Positions 10,235-17,727 of a DNA stretch of 64,000 nucleotides are shown in pieces. How positions within the stretch are numbered: position 1 is the stretch's first letter; every line of letters begins with the position of its first letter. Below the pieces are notes generated by a model. It did no database searches, was not told the origin of the DNA, and saw nothing but the letters and a program-made list of their open reading frames with translations. Origin of the DNA: Sphingomonas mali NBRC 15500 (GTDB taxonomy: Bacteria; Pseudomonadota; Alphaproteobacteria; Sphingomonadales; Sphingomonadaceae); assembly GCF_001598415.1 (NCBI RefSeq), contig NZ_BCYX01000007.1, positions 1 through 64,000 on the forward strand, in the 5' to 3' direction. A program made the translations under genes and the position numbers.

Positions 10235-10989
10235 GCGGCGATCTCGACGTCGTCCGCCATGCCCGCGCCCGGCGGATGCGGCTGTCGGTCGATCCGGCGA
10301 GCGGGCGCGTACGGCTGACCATTCCCCCGCGCGCCTCGCTCAAGCAGGCGATGGCCTGGGCCAACGATCATCGCGGCTGGATCGAGGCGCAGCGGGCGAA
10401 GCTGCCCGAGGGGCGGCCGTTCGTGCCGGGGGCGGTCATCCCGATCGAGGGTGAGGATGTGGCGATCGACTGGTCGCCGGAGCGGTCACGGACGATTACC
10501 CTAATCCGTCATGCCGGCCCTGTGCCGGCATCCACGGAGCCGCACGACCCGGGATTTGCGGCTCTGTGGACCCCGGCACAAGGCCGGGGTGACGAAAGGC
10601 TGGTGTGTGGCGGGCCGTTGGAAGGTCTCTCACGCCGCATAGAAACCTGGCTTAAACGCCGTGCGCTTGCGGTCCTGACCGAAGAGACCGCCGAATTCGC
10701 GGCCAAGGCCGGCGTCACCGTCAGCCGCGTCGCGGTCGCCGATCCCAAAGGCCGCTGGGGCAGCTGTGCGTCGACCGGTGCGATCCGCTACAGCTGGCGG
10801 CTGATCTGCGCGCCCACCTATGTTCGGCGTTCAACCGTCGCGCACGAAGTCGCGCATCGGCTCCATATGGACCATTCGCCGGCATTCCACGCCGCCTATC
10901 GGCATTTGCTGGGCGATGACCCGGCTCCGGCGCGCGCCTGGCTGCGGCGCCACGGCGCGACGCTTCACTGGGTCGGGCGGGGCGGCTGA
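10231..10989 (+). CDS. YgjP-type zinc metallopeptidase carrying an in-frame palindromic repeat
   Basis: The 252-residue protein belongs to the YgjP/DUF45 family. It has the RWGSC signature (KGRWGSCASTGAI), the zinc motif HEVAH and the following HMDHSPAFHAAY. The GTG at 10231 overlaps the UPF0260 stop. Residues about 93-122 (RHAGPVPAS ... AQGRGDE) do not look like family sequence: they are the translation of a palindromic DNA repeat that elsewhere in this window is intergenic. Without them the text runs on as a normal YgjP strand pair. The 3' end overlaps the convergent PBP gene by 25 bases. Confidence 0.88.
   Translation: MSGDLDVVRHARARRMRLSVDPASGRVRLTIPPRASLKQAMAWANDHRGWIEAQRAKLPEGRPFVPGAVIPIEGEDVAIDWSPERSRTITLIRHAGPVPASTEPHDPGFAALWTPAQGRGDERLVCGGPLEGLSRRIETWLKRRALAVLTEETAEFAAKAGVTVSRVAVADPKGRWGSCASTGAIRYSWRLICAPTYVRRSTVAHEVAHRLHMDHSPAFHAAYRHLLGDDPAPARAWLRRHGATLHWVGRGG
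10507..10594. repeat. Palindromic dispersed repeat, copy C, inside a gene
   Basis: Left arm 10507-10536 and right arm 10566-10594 match the arms of the intergenic copies at 3720 and 8363, with the CATGCCGG variant on the left and CCCCGG on the right. It lies within the YgjP reading frame without a stop codon or frameshift and adds about 30 residues. This is the behaviour described for Rickettsia palindromic elements, though this sequence is of a different family. Confidence 0.85.
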
Positions 10990-13109
10990 ATCTCGCGCGG
11001 CCGATCGGCCGGGGCGCCGTTCGGCACGACGCGCTTGGGCCGGTTCGGATCGCCGCCCGAACTGCCGGTCATGCGATCGATCCATTTGCGGTCGAGCCGC
11101 TCCTCGGGCCGTTGCGTACCATCGTCGGCGGCGTCGGGCGCGGTCTGCGGCGGGTCATTTTCGGTCTGCGGCGGCTCGCCCGCATCACCCCCGCCGATCG
11201 GAGCATCGGGAGCGATCTGGTCGGGCGGAATCGGATTGCCGTCGGGGTCGACGAACAGGCCGTTATCGGGCTGGCCGAAATCGCTTTCGTTGTCGAGCTG
11301 CCATTCGGGCAAGGTCACCTGGGTGTCGAACGCTTCGACCGGGCGCCCGGCGGTAGCGATCTTCATGAACGCCGCGAAGGCGCGCGCCGGCAAGGTGCCG
11401 CCCTGCAGGCCCGGAATAGACTTGGCGTCGTCGCGCCCCATCCACACCCCGGTGGTCAGGCCCGAGGAGAAACCGAGAAACCAGCCATCCTTGTTCGAGC
11501 TCGTCGTCCCGGTCTTGCCCGCGACCGGGCGTCCGATCTGCGCCGCCTTGCCGGTGCCGGTGGCGACCGCGGTCTGCAGCAGGTCGGTCATCTCGGCGGC
11601 GACATAAGGCGCGACCAGCACGTGGCTGCGGTCGACTTCGTGATTGTAGATCGTCTCGCCCATCGAAGTGACCTTGGTGATCCCGTACGGGGTCACCGCC
11701 ACGCCCTTGTTGCCGACGCTGGCGAAAGCGCGGGTCATGTCGATCAGGCGGACGTCGTTCGATCCCAGCACCATCGACGGCACGGTCGAGATCGGAGTCG
11801 AGATGCCGAAGCGGCGCGCCATGTCGGCGACGGTCGAGAAGCCGACTTCCTGACCGATCTTGGCCGCGACCGTGTTGACCGAGTAGGCAAAGGCCGTGCG
11901 GATATCCATTTCCCCGGCATTGCGCCCCGACGAATTGCGCGGGCTCCAGCCATTGATCGTGATCGGCTCGTCCACGATGCGGTCGCTCGGGCGATGCCCC
12001 GCCTCGAGCGCCGCCAGATAGACGAACAATTTGAACGACGACCCCGGTTGGCGCAGCGCGGTCACGCCGCGATTATAGTTCGAGGTGACGTAATCCTTGC
12101 CGCCGACCATCGCGCGCACCGCGCCGTCGCGATCGAGGCTGATCAGCGCACCTTGCGCATTGCGGGGGGCGTAAGCGGCGATCGCGGCGTCGGCCGCCTT
12201 CTGCATGCGGATGTCGATCGTCGTCCACACTTCGAGCGGACGGGTCGGCTCGTCGATCAGATTCTCGAGCTGGGGCAGTGCCCAGTCGGTGAAATAGCGC
12301 ACGCTGTTCTGGTTGGGCTCGGGCGCGAGCTTGACCGTCCTGGGATCGACCGACGCCGCTTCGGCAGCGGAGATCTTGCCGGTTTCCTTCATCAGCCCGA
12401 TCACCACGCCGGCGCGGTCGACCGCGGCCTGGGCGTCGGCGGTGGGCGAATAATGCGATGGCGCCTTGACCAGCCCGGCGATGATCGCCGCCTCGCCCAG
12501 GCTCAGCTGGCCGGCGCCATGGCCGAAGAATTTGCGGCTGGCGGCGTCGATGCCGTAAGCGCCGCCGCCGAAATAGACCTTGTTGAGATAGAGTTCGAGC
12601 ACCTGGTCCTTGGTGAACTTGCGCTCGAGCGCCAGCGCCAGGACCATCTCGCGCGCCTTGCGGCCGAACTTCTTGGTCGACGACAGGAAGATGTTGCGCG
12701 CCAGCTGCTGGGTGATGGTCGATCCGCCCTGGGTCCAATGCCCCTGTTGGGCGCGCACCTGGAACGAGCGGATCACGCCGATCGGATCGACGCCGGGATG
12801 GCTGCGGAAGCGGCGATCCTCGACCGCGACCATCGCATCCTTCATCACTTGCGGGATCTGGGCGTAAGGCAGCCACTCGCCATAGCTCGGCCCCAGGCTG
12901 ACGATCGGGGTGCCGTCATCGGCCAGCACGCGGATCATCTGGCCGTTGGGCGAGGATTTGAGCTCGTCGAAGCTCGGCAGCTGCGATTCGGTCACATAGA
13001 CGGTGACGACGAGCGCGATGATGCCGAGCAAGGCGGCGACGCCGGAAAGGCGCAGGCCCAGCACGAGCCAGCGGCGCCAGCGGGGGACAATTTTGGACGC
13101 CTTGGCCAT
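10965..13109 (-). CDS. Penicillin-binding protein 1A-type bifunctional peptidoglycan synthase
   Basis: The 714-residue class A PBP has one N-terminal membrane helix (about residues 15-37). A GT51 glycosyltransferase domain follows (VEDRRFRSHPGVDPIG, GGSTITQQLARN, LELYLNKVYFGGGAYG). The transpeptidase domain has active-site SSFK in RQPGSSFKLF, SVN in FAYSVNTVAAK and KTGT in VAGKTGTTSSN. It polymerises and crosslinks peptidoglycan in the periplasm. The C-terminal ~100 residues are low-complexity and rich in Pro, Asp and Gln. The gene lies 71 bases downstream of msrB in the same direction. Confidence 0.95.
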   Translation of the reverse strand: MAKASKIVPRWRRWLVLGLRLSGVAALLGIIALVVTVYVTESQLPSFDELKSSPNGQMIRVLADDGTPIVSLGPSYGEWLPYAQIPQVMKDAMVAVEDRRFRSHPGVDPIGVIRSFQVRAQQGHWTQGGSTITQQLARNIFLSSTKKFGRKAREMVLALALERKFTKDQVLELYLNKVYFGGGAYGIDAASRKFFGHGAGQLSLGEAAIIAGLVKAPSHYSPTADAQAAVDRAGVVIGLMKETGKISAAEAASVDPRTVKLAPEPNQNSVRYFTDWALPQLENLIDEPTRPLEVWTTIDIRMQKAADAAIAAYAPRNAQGALISLDRDGAVRAMVGGKDYVTSNYNRGVTALRQPGSSFKLFVYLAALEAGHRPSDRIVDEPITINGWSPRNSSGRNAGEMDIRTAFAYSVNTVAAKIGQEVGFSTVADMARRFGISTPISTVPSMVLGSNDVRLIDMTRAFASVGNKGVAVTPYGITKVTSMGETIYNHEVDRSHVLVAPYVAAEMTDLLQTAVATGTGKAAQIGRPVAGKTGTTSSNKDGWFLGFSSGLTTGVWMGRDDAKSIPGLQGGTLPARAFAAFMKIATAGRPVEAFDTQVTLPEWQLDNESDFGQPDNGLFVDPDGNPIPPDQIAPDAPIGGGDAGEPPQTENDPPQTAPDAADDGTQRPEERLDRKWIDRMTGSSGGDPNRPKRVVPNGAPADRPREIQPPRPTQ

Positions 13110-13180: not shown

Positions 13181-13579
13181 TCAATCCGCACGCGGACGGA
13201 AATCGAGGCTGATCGAGTTCATGCAATAGCGCAGACCCGTCGGCGGCGGCCCGTCGGGGAAGACGTGCCCCAGATGGCTGTCGCAGCGCGCGCAACGGGT
13301 TTCGGTGCGCGTCATGCCATGGCTGGTGTCGCTATGGTTGGTGACATGATCCTCGGCGATCGGCTGGGTGAAGCTGGGCCAGCCCGATCCCGAATCATAT
13401 TTGTCGGCGCTGTCGAACAGGTCGAGTCCGCACGCGGCGCAGGCATAGATGCCGTCGGCCTTATTGTCGTTGTAGATGCCGGCAAAGGCGCGTTCGGTCC
13501 CCGCCTCGCGCAGCACATGATATTGCTCGGGGGTCAGGCGCTTGCGCCATTCGGTTTCGGAGAGCGAGAGATGTTCCAT
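13181..13579 (-). CDS. msrB: Peptide-methionine (R)-S-oxide reductase
   Basis: The 132-residue MsrB repairs methionine-R-sulfoxide. It shows the structural zinc CxxC pairs (CAACG and CARC), [11 protein letters not shown], and catalytic cysteine in [12 protein letters not shown]. The ATG at 13579 gives the family-typical N-terminus ([20 protein letters not shown]); an upstream in-frame start would add 12 non-conserved residues. It follows the FAD-oxidoreductase gene by 25 bases, so it may be the last gene of the PKS operon. Confidence 0.95.
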
Positions 13580-13604: not shown

Positions 13605-14711
13605 TCACGCGTCAAGCGGCTTGTGGCTGATCCGGGTTAGCCGGGCGGCGATTCCGGCGAGTTGCGGCGCCAGTCGCACGGCCGCGGTCAGTGCGCTCGC
13701 CCAGGCGGGTCGCTCGGCGGCGGCGCGAATTCTGTTGGCCACCGCGAACGGGGTCGTCAGGTCGCGCGCGAGCCGCTGCTGATAGAGGATGGCGCCGGCT
13801 GGGCCATGGCGAAGATAGTCGGTCGCCGCCCGCGCGCCGCTTTCGATCGCGATTCCCATGCCTTCGCCCGCCAGGCTGGGGATGCAGGCAGCTTGATCGC
13901 CAAGCCGGAACAGCCCGGCCGTGCCGTCCGCGACGCGCCAGCCATAAGGCACGTTGGCCACCGCATCGATCGCCGCAGCGCTGGCGCGATGGGCCAACCG
14001 CTCGGCTAGCCGGGGCGATTCGCGTGCCAGTGCGTCGAGCAATTTGTCCGGCGATCCCGCCCCGCTCAGCCGCGACCGGTGCACCGCCATGCACAGATTG
14101 ACCGTGCCGTCTTCCTGCCGCGCGATCCCGGCATAGCCGCGATCGAACAGATGGAGCTCGATCGTATCGCCAACTATCCGGTCGAGCGCGTCGCTCGGCC
14201 CCAGCCGGACGCGCAGGCCCAAAGTCGGGTCGTCGCTACGCTCGGCACCGCGTGCCAGCCCACGCAGATCATGCTTTCCCGTGGCGAGGAACAAGGCGTC
14301 AGGAGTGATTTCGCTGTCGTCGGCCAGGCGGACGCAATCGCCTTCGAGCGCGCGCGCCGCGACGCCGCGCTCGACCGCCGCGCCGGCGGTGATCGCGTGA
14401 TCGAGCAGCAAGGTATCGAGCCGCCGGCGCGAGACCGCGAGCGCCGGGCGCGGCAGCCATGCTTCGGCCCGACGCGCGCCGGCGAACAGCCGCAGCCGGC
14501 GGATTTCCTCACGGTTGAGCGCATCGCGTCGGATGCCGAGGCGATCGAGCGCCTCGAGCGTCCGCCAGCTCAGGAACCCCCCGCACAAGGCGTCGCCGGT
14601 CTCGGCGCTGCGCTCGATCAGCAGATGCGGCGTCCCGGCGCGCGCCAGCAGCAGCGCCGCCACCGCGCCTGCCGGCCCGCCGCCGACGATCAGTGCAGGC
14701 GTTCGACGCAC
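13605..14711 (-). CDS. FAD-dependent monooxygenase/oxidoreductase of the type III PKS operon
   Basis: The 368-residue flavoprotein begins with a dinucleotide-binding motif ([21 protein letters not shown]). It contains the second FAD motif ([26 protein letters not shown]) characteristic of the UbiH/geranylgeranyl-reductase group. Its GTG start at 14711 overlaps the end of the methyltransferase gene by 22 bases. In Streptomyces griseus the SrsA PKS, SrsB methyltransferase and SrsC flavoprotein hydroxylase make methylated phenolic lipids and alkylquinones. The same gene set here suggests ring hydroxylation or oxidation of an alkylresorcinol. The exact reaction is inferred. Confidence 0.82.
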
Positions 14712-15379
14712 AGGCGAAACGGAAAGGCGCGATAGACGCGCGCGTCAGTAATACCGGCCTCGGCCAGGATCGGCGGCCATTCGCCGGGGCGATAGGATCG
14801 CGCGATCGACAAGGTGCCATCAAGCCGGACGATGCGGTGCCAGCCGAACGTGCGGGCGAGTAACGGGAATCCCCAATGCGCGAAGCCGTGACGGTGGAGA
14901 TCGTTGACCAGCCATCCCATCCGCGCCTCGGCCTGCATGAAGCGCAGAAAGGCGACGAGCTGTTCGTGCGTCATGTGATGCGCGACCAGGCTGGAAATCA
15001 CCATGTCCCAGCCCTGGCCGGCAAGATCGGCGTAATCGCCGGTGATCCAGCGGATCGCCGTATCGGGGGACGAGTGCTGCCGCGCCGCCGCTTCGCTGCG
15101 CGGATTGAGGTCGACGCCGACCAGGTCGGCCGCGATGCCGCGCTTCGCTGCCCAGCGCGCGATCGTCCGCAGCATGTCGCCATCGCCGAACCCGACATCG
15201 AGTAATTTGAATGCTTTGCGGCCGTTGAGCGCGCGATCGATGAACGACAGGGTCGGACGCGCCGCCATCGTCACGACATTGACCTTGGCGAGATCGCCGA
15301 CCACCGCCGCATAGGTCGCCGCGTCGAGGTCGTCGGCGTCCATCAGCTCATCGGCGATGGCGCGCTGAGCGAGACTCAC
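14690..15379 (-). CDS. SAM-dependent methyltransferase of the type III PKS operon
   Basis: A 229-residue class I methyltransferase with motif I in FKLLDVGFGDGDML, an acidic residue at the end of strand 2 (LVGVDLNPRSE) and DYADLAGQGWDMVISS. It probably O- or C-methylates the phenolic product of the neighbouring polyketide synthase, by analogy with SrsB. The GTG start at 15379 overlaps the PKS stop codon (GTGA), so translation is coupled. A longer upstream frame runs antisense-like through the PKS gene and is not real. Confidence 0.85.
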   Translation of the reverse strand: MSLAQRAIADELMDADDLDAATYAAVVGDLAKVNVVTMAARPTLSFIDRALNGRKAFKLLDVGFGDGDMLRTIARWAAKRGIAADLVGVDLNPRSEAAARQHSSPDTAIRWITGDYADLAGQGWDMVISSLVAHHMTHEQLVAFLRFMQAEARMGWLVNDLHRHGFAHWGFPLLARTFGWHRIVRLDGTLSIARSYRPGEWPPILAEAGITDARVYRAFPFRLCVERLH

Positions 15380-16449
15380 GCCGCGCTCCGGAACCCGAAT
15401 CCTTCGGCGGCCAGCCCGGGCCCGAACGCCAGCGCGATGCCCTGGCCGACTCGCGGTCCCTTGAGCATCTTGGCCAGCGTGAACATCAATGTCGCCGACG
15501 ACATGTTGCCATAATCGTGCAGCGTCTCGCGCGATGCCCACAAGGCGCCTTGCGGCAGATGATAGGCAGTCTCGACCGCGTCGAGGATCGAGCGCCCACC
15601 GGCATGCACTGCCCAGCCGTCGATATCCTCGACGTTCCGCCCACCGAGCGCGGCGGTGGCGAAATCGGGATCGGCGAGCCCTTGCGCGATGCGCTGCGGG
15701 ACTTCGCCCGACAGATGCATCTCGAACCCCTTGTCGGTGATGTCCCAGCGGATCAGCTGCTCCGAATCGGGCAAGGTGGTGGCGAACGGCGCCTCGAGCT
15801 CGAACCCGGCGGCATCGCTGGTCACCAAGGCCGCGCCCGCGCCGTCGCCGAACTGGAGCATCGCCAGCAATTTCTCGATCTCGCCGGTATCCTGGAGATG
15901 GAGCGAGCAGAGTTCGACGCAGACCACCAGCACGCGCGCACCGGGTTCGGACCGCACGATGTGGCGCGCGCTGCGCAACGCGGCGACCGCGGCATAGCAA
16001 CCCATGAACCCGACCAGCAGCCGCTCCACCGACGGCGCCAGGCCGAGCCGGCGGGCGATGATCTGATCGACGCCGGGCGCGACGAAGCCGGTGCAGCTGG
16101 CCAGCACGAGATGCGTGATCCGGTCTATCTCGACCTGTTCGGCGAGCCGGTCGATCGCGTCGAGGCTCAGCGCCGGCGCTGCATCGGCATAGACCCGCAT
16201 CCGCGCGTCGGTGCCCGGCATGAAGCCACCTTCGTAGAATCCGCCGGGGCCGATCGGCGACCCGCCATCGTCGGCGTGTGGCAACACGGTCCAGCGATGC
16301 TCGATCCCCGATCGCGCGACCATCCGGCCGAACACTTTGGCGAGGCGTGGATCGGCGATCTTGGGCTGGGCCCAGCCGATGAACGCGTTGTGCGCGTCAT
16401 GGTCGGGCACTGCGGTACCGATAGCGTTGAGATAGACATTGGCGGACAC
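15376..16449 (-). CDS. Type III polyketide synthase (alkylresorcinol/alkylpyrone synthase-like)
   Basis: A 357-residue chalcone/stilbene-synthase fold protein. The catalytic triad is complete: Cys151 in VGFMGCYAAVAAL, His282 in WAVHAGGRSILD and Asn315 in HDYGNMSSATLMF. Bacterial enzymes of this kind extend long-chain acyl starters with malonyl-CoA to alkylresorcinols or pyrones that enter membranes or cyst coats. GTG 16449 is preceded by AAAAGG at a suitable distance and gives the normal family length (about 350). It leads the operon PKS - methyltransferase - flavoprotein (- msrB). Confidence 0.92.
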   Translation of the reverse strand: MSANVYLNAIGTAVPDHDAHNAFIGWAQPKIADPRLAKVFGRMVARSGIEHRWTVLPHADDGGSPIGPGGFYEGGFMPGTDARMRVYADAAPALSLDAIDRLAEQVEIDRITHLVLASCTGFVAPGVDQIIARRLGLAPSVERLLVGFMGCYAAVAALRSARHIVRSEPGARVLVVCVELCSLHLQDTGEIEKLLAMLQFGDGAGAALVTSDAAGFELEAPFATTLPDSEQLIRWDITDKGFEMHLSGEVPQRIAQGLADPDFATAALGGRNVEDIDGWAVHAGGRSILDAVETAYHLPQGALWASRETLHDYGNMSSATLMFTLAKMLKGPRVGQGIALAFGPGLAAEGFGFRSAA

Positions 16450-16566
16450 GAGCGGCGACCTTTTCGGCAACAAGGGACACCGGGTTAGTGCCTCGGAAGC
16501 GGTACGCCAGTTTAACAGATGCCGCGTCTTTTTGCTCCACTCGCCCTCGGCCGCTATCAGGCTGGC

Positions 16567-17727
16567 ATGAATCCGATCTATGCCGGTATGGGCACCACGA
16601 TCTTCGAAGCGATGTCGGCGCGCGCGCGGGCGACCGGCGCGATCAACCTGGGCCAGGGATTTCCCGAGGCCCAGGGGCCGGCCGATATCATCGACGCGGC
16701 GGCCAGGGCGCTGGTCGAGAAGTCGAACCAATATCCGCCGATGATCGGCTTGCCGGAACTGCGCCAGGCGGTTGCCGCGCATTATGCCGAGCATCAGGGG
16801 CTCGATCTGTCGCCGGACGAGGTGGTGGTGACGTCGGGCGCGACCGAGGCGATCGCCGCGGCGCTGCTCGCGCTCGTCTCGCCGGGCGACGAGGTGATCC
16901 TGTTCCAGCCCCTCTACGACGCGTACTTGCCGCTGGTCGAACGCGCCGGCGGCGTGGCGAAGCTGGTGCGGCTGAGCCCGCCCGACTGGCGCGTGACTGG
17001 GGATATGCTCGAGGCGGCGTGGTCGCCCAAGACCCGGCTGCTGGTGCTCAACAGTCCGCTCAATCCCTCGGCCTCGATGATTGGGGCAGGGGAATTGGCG
17101 GTGATCGCGCGCTTCTGCGTCGAGCGAGACCTGATCGCGATCTGCGATGAGGTGTGGGAAGAACTGGTGTTCGACGGCGCGCGTCACGTGCCGCTGATGG
17201 CGCAGCCGGGGATGCGCGAGCGCACGGTCAAGATCGGCTCGGCTGGCAAGATGTTCGCGCTGACCGGGTGGAAAGTCGGCTGGATGTGCGCCGCGCCCGA
17301 GCTGGCGCGCGGTCTGGCCAAGGCGCACCAGTTCCTGACCTTCACCACACCACCCAATCTGCAATGGGCGGCCGCCTACGGCCTCGCCAAGGACAAGGCC
17401 TGGTTCGACAAGGAACGCGCAGGCTTCCAGCGCTCGCGCGACCGGCTCGCGGCGGGACTGCGCGAGGCGGGCTATGTCACCTTGCCGTCGGCGGCGACCT
17501 ATTTCATCTCGATCGATCTGACCGCCTCGGGCATCGCGCTCGACGACGTCACCTTCTGCAATCGTCTGCTCGACGAGGCCGGCGTGGCGGCGATCCCGGT
17601 CTCGGCCTTTTATGCCGCAGACCCTGTGACCAATGTCGTTCGCCTGTGCTTCGCCAAGAGCGACGCCACTCTCGACGCCGCGATCGAGCGGATGGCGGGG
17701 TTTCGGCGGGCGCTGGGGTCTGCGTAA
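16567..17727 (+). CDS. Class I/II PLP-dependent aminotransferase
   Basis: From ATG 16567 the product is 386 residues and aligns by eye with the methionine/kynurenine aminotransferase branch (GTTIFEAMSARARATGAINL-type start, LGQGFPE). PLP-site segments are NSPLNPSA, AICDEVWEEL and the lysine in SAGKMFALTGWKVGW. The usual NPxNP is NSPLNPS here. The last 69 codons are present a second time, diverged by about 10%, at 18885-19090. An upstream in-frame ATG at 16519 would add 16 unconserved residues. The gene is divergent from the PKS operon. Confidence 0.9.
   Translation: MNPIYAGMGTTIFEAMSARARATGAINLGQGFPEAQGPADIIDAAARALVEKSNQYPPMIGLPELRQAVAAHYAEHQGLDLSPDEVVVTSGATEAIAAALLALVSPGDEVILFQPLYDAYLPLVERAGGVAKLVRLSPPDWRVTGDMLEAAWSPKTRLLVLNSPLNPSASMIGAGELAVIARFCVERDLIAICDEVWEELVFDGARHVPLMAQPGMRERTVKIGSAGKMFALTGWKVGWMCAAPELARGLAKAHQFLTFTTPPNLQWAAAYGLAKDKAWFDKERAGFQRSRDRLAAGLREAGYVTLPSAATYFISIDLTASGIALDDVTFCNRLLDEAGVAAIPVSAFYAADPVTNVVRLCFAKSDATLDAAIERMAGFRRALGSA
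17511..17716 (+). repeat. Duplicated segment, resident copy (aminotransferase 3' end)
   Basis: This 206-base stretch matches 18885-19090 without gaps. I counted 20 mismatches by hand (about 90% identity), of which about 16 are synonymous. It is the C-terminal coding part of the aminotransferase gene. Confidence 0.9.

Follow-up and report, generated by a model that had tools for sequence, protein, structure and literature searches.

Three overlapping minus-strand genes in a 64,000-nucleotide stretch of Sphingomonas mali NBRC 15500 (the whole stretch is referred to here as the window) encode a type III polyketide synthase (PKS), a class I SAM-dependent methyltransferase and an FAD flavoprotein, and these three genes are a real, conserved and coherent unit. 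The best overall explanation of the locus, and one that we consider probable, is a single biosynthetic unit for a methylated alkyl-hydroquinone or quinone membrane lipid, with the adjoining methionine sulfoxide reductase gene (msrB) as a bystander. The analysis established gene integrity, the catalytic residues of the PKS, family relations, co-inheritance and the clade to which the PKS belongs.

Gene arrangement and conservation of the triad

The genes of the locus and its immediate surroundings were as follows:

10965-13109, minus strand: bifunctional penicillin-binding protein, above the cut-off of the PBP1A family model; neighbour, outside the pathway
13181-13579, minus strand: msrB, methionine-R-sulfoxide reductase; neighbour, probably outside the pathway
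13605-14711, minus strand: FAD flavoprotein of the geranylgeranyl-reductase/QhpG type, 368 aa, GTG start; probable ring hydroxylase
14690-15379, minus strand: class I SAM-dependent methyltransferase, 229 aa, GTG start; related to NCBIfam PRK06202
15376-16449, minus strand: type III PKS, 357 aa, GTG start
16519-17727, plus strand: PLP aminotransferase (PRK08912); divergent neighbour, outside the pathway

The PKS and methyltransferase genes overlapped by 4 bases, the GTG start of the methyltransferase lying inside the PKS stop, while the methyltransferase and flavoprotein genes overlapped by 22 bases and msrB followed 25 bases after the flavoprotein stop. The arrangement given in the original prediction, three overlapping minus-strand genes with msrB 25 bases further on, was confirmed in its coordinates, strand and overlaps. 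The window corresponds to the start of contig C7, and its PKS was the one PF00195 match found in the 5.2-Mb genome. Comparison with a second genome of the same genus (G155) gave dN/dS values of 0.07, 0.06 and 0.20 for PKS, methyltransferase and flavoprotein, respectively, and the three genes have therefore been maintained. Among the triad loci compared, the aminotransferase gene stood beside the triad only in the window and in this same-genus genome. A promoter scan of the locus found no sigma-70-like site, and the one terminator-like site, no more than expected by chance, lay within the methyltransferase gene.

Conservation of the triad was assessed across 199 family genomes (the window's own included), with a PKS assigned to the clade at an identity of at least 50% and two partial copies counted. 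The clade PKS was present in 103 of these genomes; the methyltransferase was found in 102 and the flavoprotein in 101. A complete set occurred in 100, about half of the sampled family, and was contiguous in 92. None of the 96 family genomes lacking the clade PKS had a strong match to either the methyltransferase or the flavoprotein. Three triads were incomplete: two genomes (G124 and G190) had no strong flavoprotein match, and in the third (G026:C1:1989617-1990949) the PKS was in two pieces with no methyltransferase match, this triad apparently being in decay. Any PKS match at all was obtained in 125 family genomes, 22 of which had only a distant type III PKS (27-33% identity), and neither partner gene was found at any of eight loci with such a distant PKS (four from the family and four from other families of the class). 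This second, distant lineage (L087-L094; 27-37% identity), found elsewhere in the family and class, grouped with Rhizobium bcsA and with a Nitrobacter PKS that precedes a gene for isoprenylcysteine carboxyl methyltransferase (ICMT).

Outside the family, 47 out of 398 genomes sampled from the phylum had a PKS match at E<=0.001, 12 of these with at least 48% identity. Named plasmid records held the order PKS-methyltransferase-flavoprotein in Methylobacterium oryzae, Falsirhodobacter algicola and Deinococcus radiodurans, the order methyltransferase-flavoprotein-PKS in Paludisphaera borealis, and a rearranged set in Sphingobium indicum and Psychrobacter urativorans. A scan of named-organism genomes produced at least 572 PKS relatives, and the best 80 were retained. 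Among these best 80 of at least 572, the three genes lay within 2.5 kb of each other at 55 loci, one partner was found at 10 (the second lying slightly farther off in one case), and both partners were absent, within the DNA examined, from 15 (L103, L113, L114, L116, L118, L119, L120, L128, L132, L134, L139, L142, L147, L148 and L174). Some of these partnerless loci were near contig ends and others were not. The partner profiles were iterated on the same loci, and the methyltransferase was cross-checked against an independent library (NCBIfam PRK06202). Two of the plasmid-borne units adjoined transport genes, namely efflux-pump genes for the rearranged unit on plasmid pSRL1 of S. indicum B90A (L061) and an MFS exporter gene in M. 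oryzae (L059), and export of the product is possible there.

The msrB product was over the cut-off for PF01641 (178.2 bits), and the gene lay directly downstream of the flavoprotein gene in at least 33 of the 101 flavoprotein-carrying family genomes, with a gap of 28-115 bases between the matches. The association had originally been taken to suggest redox-active chemistry, and it could be read as a five-gene redox operon that couples the lipid or quinone to the repair of methionine sulfoxide or to the synthesis of the cell wall; in line with such an operon, the gap between the flavoprotein and msrB genes held no terminator-like site. However, the best msrB match lay elsewhere in 39 of the 101 genomes (msrB positions were available for all but the other 29), and no msrB match was found at the Paludisphaera, Methylobacterium, Falsirhodobacter, Sphingobium and Deinococcus plasmid loci. 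Furthermore, at all 13 loci picked for good msrB matches (10 in genomes without the triad and 3 in genomes with the triad elsewhere), msrB adjoined the same penicillin-binding-protein gene in the absence of the triad. Because the msrB-penicillin-binding-protein block exists without the triad, msrB is probably a bystander. Its proximity is not specific to the triad and does not support a link to redox chemistry, and a five-gene operon appears highly improbable.

The type III PKS and its relatives

The PKS scored over the cut-offs for both domains of the CHS fold (PF00195, 86.5 bits; PF02797, 84.1 bits) and had Cys151 in the motif GCYAA, His282 in WAVHAGG and Asn315 in YGNMSS, residues that we take, by motif, to be the catalytic triad. 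The earlier description of a complete type III PKS with these three residues was borne out. Among the named plasmid records, the closest PKSs were those of Sphingobium and Novosphingobium. The best-scoring NCBIfam model was DpgA, at 115 bits far under its cut-off of 425, which would be compatible with a DpgA- or PhlD-like enzyme making a small aromatic acid or phloroglucinol, and with the triad as a non-lipid pathway. DpgA itself, however, belonged to another well supported group of the PKS tree, and the neighbouring genes identified (immediate neighbours only) were not dpg genes, so that a non-lipid pathway is very doubtful.

The placement of the PKS comes from a careful 70-row tree, made up of the 93 rows of a quick tree minus 26 (the rice enzyme and 25 others) plus three PDB rows. 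The rice enzyme, absent from the careful tree, sat on a long branch of the quick tree, and its deep fork there was weak (34). In the 70-row tree the window PKS fell in a proteobacterial clade (support 100/100), the hid-like PKSs, with HidC represented by the picocyanobacterial loci L099 and L100, formed a separate clade (99/95), and DpgA, RppA, Pks11, CylI and the BpsA/BcsA-like enzymes made up a third group (100/98), outside which the window PKS stood. Triad PKSs from Actinomycetota, Deinococcus, Verrucomicrobiota and Balneolota were the nearest neighbours of the proteobacterial clade, a placement that was modestly supported (92/86). PKS18-type pyrone synthases fell among the triad PKSs, also with modest support, and were joined to a Pseudanabaena row (84/88). 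That all triad PKSs form one clade was neither shown nor rejected (p-AU 0.289), and the same applied to a pairing of the proteobacterial with the hid-like clade (p-AU 0.246). In the third group CylI, an alkylresorcinol-forming enzyme, stood beside the pyrone synthase Pks11, and clade therefore maps imperfectly onto product. At one locus of Legionella maioricensis (L112; order methyltransferase-flavoprotein-PKS) the PKS grouped with those of Psychrobacter and Bacteroidota, outside the proteobacterial clade, possibly as a result of transfer between phyla.

The tree bears on an alternative in which long-chain alkylpyrones are the PKS product and undergo O-methylation by the methyltransferase in a Bacillus- or mycobacterial-like manner, while the flavoprotein oxidises the chain or the ring. 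The nearness of PKS18-type enzymes to the triad lineages is in its favour, as are the best PDB matches of the window PKS by sequence, which were 7cb3 and PKS18. The alkylpyrone reading is nevertheless unlikely, given that the window PKS lay outside the group holding Pks11 and the BpsA/BcsA-like enzymes, and that planctomycete PKSs of such operons gave resorcinols, namely pentadecyl- and heptadecylresorcinols (PMC10896814). Cyanobacterial PKSs of such operons likewise make alkylresorcinols (PMC8086630). The window PKS was 35-43% identical to the hid-like rows (41% to L099 and L100) and outside their clade, and an alkylresorcinol product would therefore be an extrapolation from the planctomycete and cyanobacterial enzymes.

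A single residue was also considered as a marker. Trp281 of ArsB is described as a resorcinol marker (PMC9927152), and Trp279 of the window PKS, three residues before the catalytic His, may occupy the same position. This Trp was dropped as a marker, since PKS18 and Pks11 carry it as well, and it does not decide for resorcinol over pyrone.

The methyltransferase and the flavoprotein

The methyltransferase was over the cut-off for PF13649 (42.3 bits), and no match to PF04140 (ICMT) was found in it, either at E<=1 or at 0.01; as a positive control, the Nitrobacter ICMT adjoining a type III PKS gave 93.7 bits with this model. PRK06202 was matched by all 25 chosen methyltransferases from several phyla, the window's included. 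The latter scored 141.7 bits relative to a cut-off of 243, and is therefore a relative rather than an equivalog. Judged from these profiles, the enzyme is a soluble class I SAM-dependent methyltransferase and not an ICMT.

The flavoprotein was over the cut-off for PF01494 (60.8 bits). It had previously been called UbiH-like, but its best NCBIfam model was GG-red-SF (TIGR02032), followed by the monooxygenase QhpG, and it was not of the UbiH type; all of its NCBIfam matches were below the curated cut-offs. The flavoprotein of the picocyanobacterial locus L099 also had TIGR02032 as its best match, again below cut-off. The AlphaFold model (mean pLDDT 89.8) aligned with flavin halogenases and aromatic hydroxylases, with Z scores of 29.8-35.5 among the 50 matches listed. 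The closest folds, the first six matches (Z 33.8-35.5), were halogenases, including PltA (Z 35.5, 2.7 A over 351 residues), and a geranylgeranyl-reductase-like protein gave a Z score of 32.0. The fold by itself does not settle the reaction, and a reduction or another oxidation would be possible. Flavin-dependent halogenases have a catalytic lysine in the KxGxxF region. The stretch of the window flavoprotein taken by eye as the counterpart of this region had no lysine, and for this reason, on the by-eye match, the halogenase function suggested by the fold was provisionally set aside.

The motifs CG-x-x-L and GYxG were found in 24 of 28 chosen aligned flavoproteins, the window's among them; the remaining four, from three Actinomycetota triads and one Balneolota triad, did not share them. 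These four and the Deinococcus flavoprotein had monooxygenase/UbiH-family models as their best matches, below the cut-offs. UbiH/PHBH-type flavoprotein genes were seen accordingly in triads L164, L166, L150, L162 and L062 (Actinomycetota, Balneolota and Deinococcus), and the geranylgeranyl-reductase type in the window, picocyanobacteria, planctomycetes and Bacteroidota. One flavoprotein family has apparently taken the place of another at this operon position, next to a PKS and a methyltransferase of the same kinds, and one of the two flavoprotein types is close to known aromatic hydroxylases. That UbiH/PHBH-type proteins fill this slot argues that the window flavoprotein is a ring hydroxylase too, and the simplest reading would be that both types hydroxylate the ring. 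Two flavoprotein types in one slot also provide a direct handle on the role of the oxidoreductase, which was left open for the planctomycetes by the authors of the Gimesia work (PMC10896814).

Proposed pathway and comparison with known systems

In the pathway that we favour, the type III PKS would load a long acyl thioester, extend it with three malonyl units and close the ring by decarboxylative aldol condensation, giving a 5-alkylresorcinol. The methyltransferase would then add one or more methyl groups, on oxygen or carbon, and the flavoprotein would hydroxylate the ring to give a methylated alkyl-hydroquinone, which could be oxidised to the quinone in the membrane. The substrate, chain length, cyclisation type, methylation site, hydroxylation and membrane role in this scheme are inferred. 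When the Gimesia maris methyltransferase and oxidoreductase were co-expressed, one methyl group was added, probably on carbon (PMC10896814). Hierridin B is C23H40O3 (PMC3726634), and its three ring oxygens, compared with two in a resorcinol, imply that a hydroxylation is needed. The original expectation of an alkylresorcinol- or alkylquinone-type lipid, made by a PKS with methylation and flavin oxidation, stands by inference as a reasonable guess.

Should the product be a redox-active membrane lipid, this would enlarge the lipid and quinone chemistry of a large and much used bacterial family. No characterised product of a sphingomonad or alphaproteobacterial unit was found among the papers listed by the literature searches; a sphingomonad type III PKS cluster has been reported, from genome mining only (PMC9281055). 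There is an outside chance that sphingomonads and other Alphaproteobacteria have an additional quinone pool in the membrane, besides ubiquinone, consisting of an undescribed class of methylated alkyl-hydroquinones made by a separate PKS lineage and by a resorcinol hydroxylase on a geranylgeranyl-reductase-type scaffold.

The triad had been said to mirror SrsA-SrsB-SrsC of Streptomyces griseus. The two systems share the functional order of type III PKS, methyltransferase and FAD monooxygenase, and have a similar predicted end product, as a true srsABC homologue would. In an operon 51-63% identical to S. griseus srs, however, srsB was annotated as an isoprenylcysteine carboxyl methyltransferase (PMC6669644), whereas the window methyltransferase is of class I; on that annotation homology is already contradicted for SrsB, and the resemblance is therefore one of function and not of descent. 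The flavoprotein, not being of the UbiH type, also speaks against common descent (SrsA and SrsC were compared by description), and of the readings considered we give true homology to srsABC the least credence. The pkqABC genes of Mycobacterium smegmatis, likened by description, also comprise a PKS, a methyltransferase and an oxidoreductase, and their product is an alkyl benzoquinone used as an electron carrier, as described in PMC9927152 and PMC8730385.

The hidABC genes for hierridin in picocyanobacteria encode a methyltransferase (HidA), an oxidoreductase (HidB) and a type III PKS (HidC). Loci L099 and L100, arranged as hidABC, carried a methyltransferase and a flavoprotein of the kinds seen in the window. 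The usual hid order is methyltransferase-flavoprotein-PKS, in contrast to PKS-methyltransferase-flavoprotein in the window, and the window PKS belonged to a separate clade, with 41% identity to the L099 and L100 enzymes that stand in for HidC. The order of the window (hidC-hidA-hidB) does exist in cyanobacteria but is rarer (PMC8086630). The planctomycete operon of Gimesia maris and Rhodopirellula (methyltransferase-oxidoreductase-PKS; Milke 2024) had the same families at loci L058 and L098, which stand in for Gimesia, and its PKSs make alkylresorcinols when expressed (PMC10896814); it differed from the window in gene order and clade, the window PKS being about 40% identical to those of L058 and L098. 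The triad is thus a branch, without a characterised product, of a kind known from cyanobacteria and planctomycetes, rather than something new. Going by protein family assignments, its nearest known counterparts appear to be hidABC and the planctomycete PKS-methyltransferase-oxidoreductase set, both closer than srsABC.
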